DNA from: Gammaproteobacteria bacterium
Lineage (GTDB): Bacteria; Pseudomonadota; Gammaproteobacteria; Steroidobacterales; GCA-2729495
Direction of reading: 5' to 3'
NCBI GenBank assembly: GCA_021773815.1
Contig: JAJFJS010000086.1
Location: forward strand, 1-64,000
Length of the DNA stretch: 64,000 nucleotides
The notes below the pieces were generated by a model. That model was not told where the DNA came from. It made no database searches and worked only from the letters and a program-made list of their open reading frames with translations. The first letter of the stretch is position 1. Each line of letters begins with the position of its first letter. Of this stretch, positions 42,864-46,775 are shown piece after piece. Made by a program: the position numbers and the translations under genes.

Positions 42864-43445
42864 CTACTGCTGGAACCAGCGCGCGCGCAGGCGTTCGAGT
42901 ACCTTCTCGGGGTAGCGACGACTGCCGACACTGCCGTTGTAGCGCGCCAGGGCGCGTGTCAGGTCGCCGCGTTCCATGTCGATGTAATACTTGAGTATCG
43001 TGCAGCCCATCCGCAGGTTCGTGCCGATGTCGACGAGTCGGTCGCCGGGCTGGCCGATTTCGTTGAGCCAGAAGGGCATGACCTGCATGAGTCCCTGCGC
43101 GCCGGCCACGGAAACCGCATAGGCGTCGAACGCGCTTTCGATATCGATGACCGCGAGCACCAGTTCGGGCGGCAGGTCCGCGCGCGTCGCCTCCTGGTGC
43201 ACGCGCGTCAGTATCCGCACGCGTTCTTTCGGGTCCGTGACCTGCTCGCCGAGGCGACTGGCCATGTCGGTGAGCCAGACCTGTGCGTCGAACCGGTCCG
43301 GAAAACTCGCCGGGTCCTGCATGGCGATCTGCAGCCGTTCGCGCAGTGCGGGGTCCATCGCGTCGGCGCCGACCGAGATCGGCGCGACGAGCAGCGCCAA
43401 CCAAAGCGCGACGGGCCAACCGGACAGCGATGCGAGCCGGACCAT
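42864..43445 (-). CDS. Lytic murein transglycosylase (SLT domain)
   Basis: This 193-residue protein has an N-terminal signal peptide (about 1-26) and an SLT domain that cleaves peptidoglycan. The catalytic Glu lies in VIDIESAFDAYAVS, followed by GAQGLMQVMPFW and LARYNGS, which mark family 1 transglycosylases. It lacks LysM or other cell-wall binding parts. Its start codon shares bases with the proS stop, so it is coupled to proS. Confidence 0.92.
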   Translation of the reverse strand: MVRLASLSGWPVALWLALLVAPISVGADAMDPALRERLQIAMQDPASFPDRFDAQVWLTDMASRLGEQVTDPKERVRILTRVHQEATRADLPPELVLAVIDIESAFDAYAVSVAGAQGLMQVMPFWLNEIGQPGDRLVDIGTNLRMGCTILKYYIDMERGDLTRALARYNGSVGSRRYPEKVLERLRARWFQQ

Positions 43446-45154
43446 TATCCGTCTCGTGCGATGCGCGCCCGGAGGTCGGCAGCCGCGCCGTCCACGGCGA
43501 TGCGCGTCTCGTCACCCGTCCCGCGGCGGCGGTACTCGATGACGCCGGCGTCCAGTCCGCGTTCGCCGATCACGATACGGTGCGGAATGCCGAGCAGGTC
43601 GGCGTCGGCGAATTTCACGCCGGGCCGCGCGTCGCGGTCGTCGAGCAGCACGTCGATGCCGGCCGCTTCCAGTTCCGCGCACAGCGTTTCGGCCGCCGCA
43701 GCTACGGCGGGCGCCTTCTTCGGATTCAGCATCAGGATCGCGACATCGAACGGGCTCATCGGTTCCGGCCAGACGATGCCGTGCTCGTCGTGGTTCTGTT
43801 CGATGGCCGCGGCGACGATGCGTGTCACCCCGATCCCGTAGCAGCCCATTTGCATGTGGACCTCGCGTCCCCCGTCATCAAGCACGGTTGCATTCATGCT
43901 CTGACTGTACTTGTCTCCGAGCTGAAAGATGTGACCGACTTCAACTCCGCGAGCGATAGCCAATCGGCCGCCACCCGGGCTTGAGTCGTCGGCGACGACA
44001 TTGCGGATATCGACCGCCGTCGGCTCCGGCAGGTCGCGACCCCAGTTGACGCCCGTCAGGTGCTCGTCGACGCGGTTGGCGCCGCAGATAAAATCGGCCG
44101 CATGTGCAGCGGAATGATCGGCATAGACGGGGATCTGCAGGCCGACCGGACCGATGAAGCCCGGCGGACAGCCGGTGACCTGCTCGATGAGTTCCGGCGA
44201 TGCAAGCTGCAGCGGCGCGGTCACGCCCGCGAGTTTTTCCGCCTTGATCGTGTTGAGTTCGTGATCGCCGCGCAGGACCAGCGCGACCGGACCATCGGTG
44301 CCGTCGACGATCAGCGTCTTCAGGCAACGGGTGGCATCGACGGACAGGAATTGGCTGATCTCATCGATTGTCCGCACCGCCGGCGTGGACACCGCGGCGC
44401 TCCCGGCCGTCGCTGCCGGACGCGGTCCGTCGGGCGGCAGTGCCGGCGCGAGTTCGACATTTGCCGCGAACCCGTCGGCATCGCAGTAGGCGATCGCGTC
44501 TTCACCCGAGTCGGCGAGCACGTGAAATTCCTGTGACCGGGCGCCGCCGATCTCGCCGCTGTCGGCATCGACGGTGCGGAAGTGCAGGCCGAGTCGCGTG
44601 AAGATCCGGACGTAGGCGTCGGCCATGCGCCCGTAGGTTTCCTGCAGAGACGCCTGATCGATATGAAAAGAGTAGGCATCCTTCATGATGAATTCGCGCG
44701 CGCGCATGACGCCAAACCGCGGGCGAATCTCGTCGCGGAACTTGGTCTGAATCTGATAGTAATTGACCGGTAATTGCCGGTAGCTCTTGAGTTCGTGACG
44801 CGCGATATCGGTGATGACCTCTTCATGCGTCGGGCCAAAACAAAAGTCTCGTGCATGCCGGTCCTGCATACGCAGCAGCAGGTGGCCGTAACGATCCCAC
44901 CGGCCGGATTCCCGCCACAGTTCCGCGGGTTGCACGGCAGGCATCAGCAGTTCGTTCGCGCCGGCACGGTTCATTTCCTCGCGGATGATCTGTTCGACCT
45001 TGCGCAACACGCGCAGGCCGATCGGCATCCATGTGAACAGCCCGGAGGCGAGCCGGCGGATCAGGCCGGCGCGTAGCATCAACTGATGGCTGATGATTTC
45101 CGCGTCTGCGGGCGTTTCCTTGAAGGTGGTAAGAGGCAGTTGACTGAGTCGCAT
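43445..45154 (-). CDS. proS: Prolyl-tRNA synthetase (bacterial type)
   Basis: This 569-residue class II enzyme charges tRNA-Pro. Motif 1 and 2 regions show [27 protein letters not shown] and [12 protein letters not shown]. Between motifs 2 and 3 lies the YbaK-like editing insertion (about 225-385), and the C-terminal anticodon-binding domain begins near 470. [17 protein letters not shown] is motif 3. Confidence 0.97.
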
Positions 45155-45270: not shown

Positions 45271-45897
45271 GTGGTTGCGCATCGACGATCTATGATTGCC
45301 GGCGAGGGATGGCCATGGTTGATCGTCACGGCGATCGTCGGGCTGTTGATCGCGCGGTACGTGGGGCTGCTCTGGGCGGCTCCCGTCGCGGGATTGTGCC
45401 TGCTGCTGTTCCTGTTGTTCCGTGATCCCGGCCGCAGCATTCCGCCGCTGCCGCTGGCCGTGGTCGCGCCGATTGACGGGCGCGTCATCGCCGTCGGGCA
45501 GGAAGTGGACGAGGCGCTGCCGGGGGCATGGGCGCGGATATCGATTCGGACGAATCACTTCGGCGCCTACACCGTGCGGTCGCCGATCGAGGGGGCAATT
45601 CTCGATGTCGGCGAAGCGGCGGGCCCCAGACATGCGGGGCAGGTGCCTGCCGGTTTGTGGGTGCGCAGCGAGGAAGAGGACGATGTCGTCCTGCTGTTTC
45701 CGAGCAGCGGTCGGGGACTCGCGCCGAAAGCGTTCGTCCGCTACGGGGAGCGCGTCGGTCAGGGCCAGCGATTTGCCTATTTACGCCTCGCACCGCGCGC
45801 CGACGTATGCCTGCCGGTCACGGCTCAGGTCCGTGTGCGTGTGGGTGAGCGGGTGCGCGCCGGCAGCACGGTGCTGGCCGACCTGGCGGACAAATAA
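45271..45897 (+). CDS. Phosphatidylserine decarboxylase-like protein lacking the active site (probable pseudoenzyme)
   Basis: This 208-residue protein has two N-terminal membrane helices (about 14-50) and a phosphatidylserine decarboxylase (Psd) fold. VVAPIDGRVIAV keeps the catalytic Asp (D69), but the catalytic His is Tyr (Y100 in HFGAYTVRSP), and the Gly-Ser pair at which Psd cleaves itself is Ala-Pro (A174-P175 in RLAPRADVCLP, against RFGSRVDVYLP in the short-type family). It cannot form the pyruvoyl group or decarboxylate. It is next to pssA, as active psd is in many genomes, so it may be a scaffold or regulator of phospholipid synthesis. The start is GTG; an ATG at 45292 is also possible. 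Confidence 0.8.
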   Translation: MVAHRRSMIAGEGWPWLIVTAIVGLLIARYVGLLWAAPVAGLCLLLFLLFRDPGRSIPPLPLAVVAPIDGRVIAVGQEVDEALPGAWARISIRTNHFGAYTVRSPIEGAILDVGEAAGPRHAGQVPAGLWVRSEEEDDVVLLFPSSGRGLAPKAFVRYGERVGQGQRFAYLRLAPRADVCLPVTAQVRVRVGERVRAGSTVLADLADK

Positions 45898-45977
45898 CCG
45901 GTGGGCCACAAGGCGCGGAGCGTGTTTTCGGCCGGCGGCCGTGGCACACTGTCATGAGCCGAAGAGGCGATATTCAG

Positions 45978-46775
45978 GTGACCAAAGATAATTCAAATAA
46001 CAAGGTGCGCGTGGCCAGCCACAAGGGAATTTTCCTGTTCCCGAATCTCGTTACGACCGGGGTCCTGTTCGCCGGTTTTTACGGCATCGTCGCGGCGATC
46101 GACGGCAATTACCCGCGCAGCGCCGTGGCGTTGTTTATTGCGATGGTCCTCGACGGGCTGGACGGTCGCATCGCGCGCCTGACCGGGACCGAGTCGGAGT
46201 TCGGCAAGGAATTCGACAGCCTGTCAGACCTCGTTGCCTTCGGCGTCGCGCCGGCGATCATCGTGTACCAGTGGGGCCTCAGCAGGCTGGCCGAGTACGG
46301 CTGGCTGTGGGGCAAGCTGGGCTGGCTTGCCGCATTTTTATATGCGGTGGCCGCGGCTTTACGGCTCGCGCGTTTCAATGTCATGCGGGATACCGGCAGC
46401 AAGGCGTTTTTCGAGGGTTTGCCGAGTCCGTCTGCGGCCGCGCTGGTCACGTTCATGGTCTGGCTGGGCACCGAACTCGGCTGGTCGGGCGGATTTGCGC
46501 TGGCGTTTGCCGCGGCCATCACGTCGGCTGCCGGCGCGCTGATGGTGTCGCACCTCGACTTCTACAGTTTCAAGGAAGTCAGCCCGGATCGCCGTATCTC
46601 GTATACGTACATGCTCGCGATTCCGCTGACGCTCGTGCTGATCTTCCTCAATCCGCCGGTCGTTCTGTTCACGATGGCCGCCGGTTATGCGATCTCCGGT
46701 CCGATTGTGACCTTCTTCAGACATCGCCGGGCGGCGGCCGGGCAGGACGGGGAAGAGGGTGAGTCCAGTACCTGA
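45978..46775 (+). CDS. pssA: CDP-diacylglycerol-serine O-phosphatidyltransferase (phosphatidylserine synthase)
   Basis: This 265-residue membrane enzyme joins CDP-diacylglycerol and serine. The motif [12 protein letters not shown] followed by [16 protein letters not shown] is the CDP-alcohol transferase signature in its PssA form. It has about eight helices. The GTG at 45978 has AAGAGG upstream and is preferred; an in-frame ATG at 45954 lacks a ribosome-binding site. The type differs from the soluble E. coli PssA. It lies downstream of the PSD-like gene. Confidence 0.93.

Follow-up and report, generated by a model that had tools for sequence, protein, structure and literature searches.

A short-type phosphatidylserine decarboxylase homolog without its catalytic residues: a putative partner of type II phosphatidylserine synthase in gammaproteobacteria

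Annotation of the locus

Why should a protein with the fold of phosphatidylserine decarboxylase (Psd) be retained next to phosphatidylserine synthase when the residues needed for decarboxylation have disappeared from it? The question is raised by a 64,000-nucleotide stretch of gammaproteobacterial DNA (the window), for which an earlier note had proposed a non-enzymatic partner, perhaps one that controls PssA. The region 45271–46775 was found to comprise two genes, the Psd-like gene (45271..45897, +) and pssA (45954..46775, +), separated by 56 bp. The Psd-like gene lies between pssA and the divergent proS (43445..45154, −), which was recognized by its Pfam domains and serves as the locus marker of the window's gene order. 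It begins with a GTG start codon and encodes 208 amino acids, and its frame is intact, as the earlier note had read. The product of pssA is a type II (CDP-alcohol phosphotransferase) phosphatidylserine synthase, with a TIGR00473 score of 116.9 bits (cut-off 107), and is the sole match in the genome above that cut-off.

The Psd-like protein matched PF02666 with an E value of 7e-9 and 36 bits (gathering score 22), which establishes its homology to Psd. With the best NCBIfam short-Psd equivalog, it reached 118 bits where 262 are required, and two intact short Psds scored 318–319 with the same model. A phmmer search of the PDB with the single sequence gave no match, and a scan of contigs for the protein returned two close relatives only, both from Chromatiales bacterium MAGs.

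Loss of the catalytic residues

Self-cleavage of Escherichia coli Psd requires D90/D142, H144, and S254 of the LGST motif, which form a D-H-S triad (PMC7952604). The corresponding positions of the window protein were evaluated in an alignment of 113 collected homologs. The triad aspartate is retained as Asp69 (45475..45477, +), Asp being present in 105 of the 113 sequences. The catalytic His is replaced by Tyr100 (45568..45570, +), a position occupied by His in 11/11 intact homologs and by Tyr or Phe in 90/113, and the Gly-Ser self-cleavage site, likewise present in 11/11 intact homologs, is replaced by Ala174-Pro175 (45790..45795, +). Around these two positions, the 11 homologs whose site is complete share VHxNRxP and IRFGSR; the equivalent stretches of the window protein are AYTVRSP and LRLAPR. 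Among the features expected of an active short-type Psd, the window protein thus has the Asp and lacks the catalytic His and Gly-Ser, exactly as the earlier note had described.

The loss is common to a large clade of relatives. Both His and Gly-Ser are present in 11 of the 113 homologs and neither in 93, seven having Gly-Ser only and two His only, so that one or both are lost in 102/113. The proteins without the site, referred to below as dead Psds, are also devoid of the motifs G.F.NA..KAS.ENERNALW and QVAGL.ARRI, both of which are conserved in intact short Psds. A sequencing error, named by the earlier note as a possible refutation, was excluded because two assemblies of the same genus (L005 and L006) carry the identical Tyr and Ala-Pro.

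The seven members with Gly-Ser and no catalytic His (L035, L039, L041, L044, L054, L065, and L081) are possible intermediates. The two with His100 and no Gly-Ser (L074 and L089) are scattered in the tree, and the His at this position is probably a chance reappearance.

Predicted structure

An AlphaFold2 model of the dead Psd (pLDDT 91.5, pTM 0.86) showed two helices followed by a β domain. The two membrane helices mentioned in the earlier note were predicted with high confidence at the amino-terminus, at residues 11–30 and 33–49 (45301..45417, +). The best match among solved folds was EIIA-Glc (Z 13.9 over 129 residues, rmsd 2.9), followed by LytM domains (Z ∼8) and E. coli Psd (Z 7.8 over 117 residues), and most of the soluble domain accordingly conforms to the duplicated hybrid motif fold of EIIA-Glc and LytM/M23 proteins. 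As similarity to the uncleaved hybrid-motif folds is to be expected of any Psd chain that has not been cleaved, the match is uninformative as to function. The dead Psd and PssA of locus L010, folded as a single read-through chain, gave a pTM of 0.64 with a disordered linker, the two proteins being neither confidently associated nor clearly apart.

Phylogeny, selection, and clade-specific residues

In the tree of the 113 homologs, a branch with a support of 100/100 sets the 11 intact sequences apart. Another 29 intact sequences were then added (27 from beyond the class and two from within it), all of those examined having His and Gly-Ser. In the enlarged tree, a single branch has 96 dead proteins on one side and the 40 intact short-type Psds on the other, and the split persisted when the columns around His and Gly-Ser were omitted. 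As one branch divides the dead from the intact forms, a single ancient loss fits as the simplest reading of this unrooted tree.

The earlier note had seen no sign of decay, and the substitution pattern bears this out. Pairs of dead Psds with usable dS gave dN/dS values of 0.05–0.47, all well below 1, with 0.12–0.18 for the window protein and that of L005. PssA of the same genome pairs was nearly always slower; for L005 and L006, the values were 0.43 for the dead Psd and 0.06 for PssA. The frame is open in nearly all of ∼110 loci, and 19 columns are invariant among 25 members. Several residues are specific to the dead clade. Glu107 has a frequency of 0.98 in the dead clade vs. 0.27 in intact Psds. 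The acidic motif at residues 134–137 (45670..45681, +) reads EEED in the window and DExD in most relatives, the frequencies of D134, E135, and D137 being 0.91, 0.97, and 0.95 in the dead clade and 0.55, 0.36, and 0.18 in intact Psds. In the motif G159-E-R161-x-G163-Q164-G165 (45745..45765, +), R161, G163, and Q164 reach 1.00, 0.99, and 0.94 vs. 0.45, 0.18, and 0.27. Fixed residues of this kind are the trace expected of a gained function and not of decay. A pseudogene was ruled out by the invariant columns, the clade-specific residues, and dN/dS below 1. With its catalytic residues lost and the protein intact and under selection, the gene product has, as judged from sequence, the characteristics of a pseudoenzyme.

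Gene neighborhood

The gene following the dead psd is pssA in 93 of 101 lost-site loci. The commonest order is ilvI-ilvH-ilvC-[dead psd]-pssA-leuA, with leuA found downstream in many loci. In the order seen in the window, proS is located upstream (recognized in 21 lost-site loci) and a uracil-DNA glycosylase gene downstream. Intact short Psds are also placed behind ilvC, in 11/11 cases, and the dead gene is therefore an old operon gene in its original place. Long open frames that suggested a dead Psd-IlvC fusion in L077, L093, and L094 were rejected, as the extra part proved to be an out-of-frame translation of ilvC.

The earlier statement that the gene is "kept next to pssA" holds for these 93 loci and fails for two families that retain a dead Psd from which pssA has moved away. 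In family f7 (L123 and L124), which has the window's order, proS, the dead psd, and the glycosylase gene are present with pssA missing and the order otherwise unchanged. In family f80 (L126, L127, L130, and L131), the dead psd is followed by genes of SPOR, Colicin V, and amidotransferase type, and pssA is located elsewhere, behind folC- and accD-like genes (both called by eye). The converse is seen in L132, where pssA follows ilvC directly with no dead psd between them; the dead psd can therefore be lost.

Distribution and the long-type Psd

Distribution was evaluated in 276 gammaproteobacterial genomes drawn evenly from the class. A homolog was detected with profile A1 in 96/276, type II pssA in 260/276, and PF02666 in 259/276. 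The dead Psd is present in 82/276 (∼30%) and an intact short Psd in 14, three dead and three intact forms having been assigned by family or score and the remainder by sequence. A long-type Psd (E ≤ 1e-48) was found in 77/82 carriers of the dead form vs. 0/14 carriers of an intact short Psd (Fisher 5e-13; 3e-11 when only sequence-inspected genomes were considered). The long Psds read from carriers contained GST and the HxxH pair in 40/40 cases. The genome of the window is no exception: its long-type Psd on contig G000:C50 has HRVH and LGST and scores 194 bits with TIGR00163 (cut-off 112), and the earlier expectation that a true Psd must be encoded elsewhere in the genome was thus borne out. The long-type Psd is likely the working enzyme in genomes with a dead Psd. 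The occurrence of the dead form where another gene performs the reaction is as expected if a second Psd had relieved the first.

Five carriers of the dead Psd had no clear long-type Psd (G173, G203, G267, G288, and G309); these may be incomplete assemblies or cells that make no phosphatidylethanolamine (PE) by this route. The two psd genes are usually far apart, but in G110:C18 they were found on one contig, ∼21 kb from each other (313312 and 334860).

Co-variation with PssA

Pairwise distances were compared in 37 genomes having dead Psd, PssA, long Psd, and IlvC. The distances of dead Psd and PssA showed a correlation of 0.63, and a partial correlation of 0.56 (0/500 permutations) remained after conditioning on long Psd and IlvC, compared with 0.14 for long Psd and −0.11 for IlvC. 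With the longest branches removed, the partial correlations were 0.41 for PssA, 0.24 for long Psd, and −0.08 for IlvC. The permutation ignores relatedness; hence, the distances support a link to PssA and do not prove contact. The correlation could also arise from a shared locus history or relaxed rates.

A putative non-catalytic partner of PssA

We consider it moderately probable that the protein is an ancient short-type Psd pseudoenzyme that persists because it acts, without catalysis, as a partner of type II PssA in the membrane. The short-type Psd would have lost self-cleavage and catalysis long ago, once the lineage relied on a second, long-type Psd, and would have been retained as a membrane partner of the PssA encoded adjacent to it. 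Binding to PssA may take place in the membrane and involve the helices, a new surface formed by E107, DExD, and RxGQG, or both, and, as a guess, the protein may sense or hold phosphatidylserine (PS), the product, and adjust or protect the output of PssA. The guess of PS sensing derives from the fact that type II PssA lacks the peripheral-membrane control of the type I enzyme of E. coli. The latter is restrained by the anionic lipid content, through a control that depends on peripheral binding to the membrane; when the integral type II enzyme of Bacillus subtilis replaced E. coli PssA, PE rose with the enzyme level (PMC8027125). This contrast between an E. coli type I enzyme under anionic-lipid control and a B. 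subtilis replacement that is not makes a role in feedback attractive. A role in PssA control or PS binding, as the earlier note had suggested, would fit the pssA linkage and the distance co-variation. More tentatively, the pseudo-Psd could possibly be the subunit by which type II PssA is controlled in gammaproteobacteria, reading the PS or PS/PE state and setting the rate of PS synthesis, as a counterpart of the anionic-lipid control in E. coli. As type II PssA is present in 260/276 genomes and the dead Psd in only 82/276, PssA works without it. The retention of the dead Psd by f7 and f80 after the departure of pssA counts against the reading as a PssA partner.

Several other explanations were weighed. 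That the protein is an active decarboxylase cleaved at a shifted position is hardly conceivable: although seven members have Gly-Ser without His and two have His without Gly-Ser, and the G253A variant of E. coli Psd is still slowly cleaved (PMC7952604), no Ser occurs at or beside the site in the window protein (RLAPRADV), the His and the active-site motifs of the intact clade are absent from it, and no Ser is conserved elsewhere in the dead clade. A relic in decay that simply travels with the operon, to which the faster evolution relative to PssA of the same genome (dN/dS 0.43 vs. 0.06 for L005 and L006) and the absence of the gene from many genomes such as L132 might point, is very unlikely in view of the open frames, the 19 invariant columns, clade-specific residues at 94–100%, dN/dS well below 1, and the retention of the dead Psd after operon break-up. 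Families f7 and f80, in which no pssA adjoins the dead Psd, would agree with a role outside phospholipid synthesis, in which the hybrid-motif fold would serve as a binding module in the manner of EIIA-Glc or the dead LytM activators, and the model does match EIIA-Glc and LytM no less well than it matches E. coli Psd. Such a role, suggested by analogy, nevertheless appears quite improbable given the pssA linkage in 93/101 loci and the distance correlation with PssA, and likeness in fold is expected of any uncleaved Psd chain.

Two further explanations remain within phospholipid synthesis. By analogy with a prozyme, the dead Psd might act as a subunit that regulates the separately encoded long-type Psd; its carriers nearly always own a long-type Psd, and a dead paralog that activates another pyruvoyl decarboxylase is on record (PMC5201418). 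This co-occurrence, however, is expected anyway, the loss of an only Psd being lethal; the two genes lie apart (contigs C134 and C50 in the genome of the window), and the distances track PssA and not long Psd (0.56 vs. 0.14; trimmed, 0.41 vs. 0.24), so that we regard a subunit of this kind as unlikely. A putative carrier or scaffold that passes PS from PssA to the long-type Psd and regulates neither would agree with descent from a PS-binding enzyme, membrane anchoring, and pssA linkage. PS binding need not have been retained, however, as the active-site motifs of intact short Psds are gone, and a carrier is in our estimate an improbable explanation as well.

Significance and comparison with known systems

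The open literature that was searched contained no description of a dead Psd, nor of a Psd gene accompanied by ilvC and PssA, an absence that is weak evidence as subscription papers mostly lay outside the search; a review of pseudoenzymes did not mention phosphatidylserine. Located beside pssA and present in ∼30% of the sampled gammaproteobacteria, the dead Psd is a specific candidate for the balance of PE and anionic lipids under type II PssA. Many proteins likely annotated as phosphatidylserine decarboxylase are probably not decarboxylases, Pfam still matching them above its cut-off, and such misannotation would matter for metabolic models and for attempts at Psd inhibition.

Among characterized families, the short-type Psd (NCBIfam NF003680, PRK05305 group; PF02666) shares with the dead Psd its length, the two N-terminal membrane helices, the FRDPxR..P..P...PxDG start, the GxxVxAG end, and the position between ilvC and pssA. 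The dead Psd differs in the absence of His, Gly-Ser, ENERNALW, and QVAGLxARRI and in its equivalog score (118 vs. the cut-off of 262). The long-type Psd (TIGR00163, E. coli Psd; PDB 6L06, 7CNX) is homologous in fold, and differs in keeping HxxH and L/MGST. Dead paralogs that act on a partner are already known. The duplicated-hybrid-motif fold serves as a partner-binding module in EIIA-Glc and in the dead LytM-domain activators EnvC, NlpD, and DipM, and dead LytM proteins regulate hydrolases (PMC10336132); their partners and compartments are different, and their likeness to the dead Psd is one of fold only. The nearest known system is the trypanosome AdoMetDC prozyme, which is similarly related to a pyruvoyl-dependent decarboxylase, catalytically dead, and maintained by selection (PMC5201418). 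The prozyme activates its own catalytic paralog, whereas for the dead Psd both linkage and distances indicate another enzyme, PssA.
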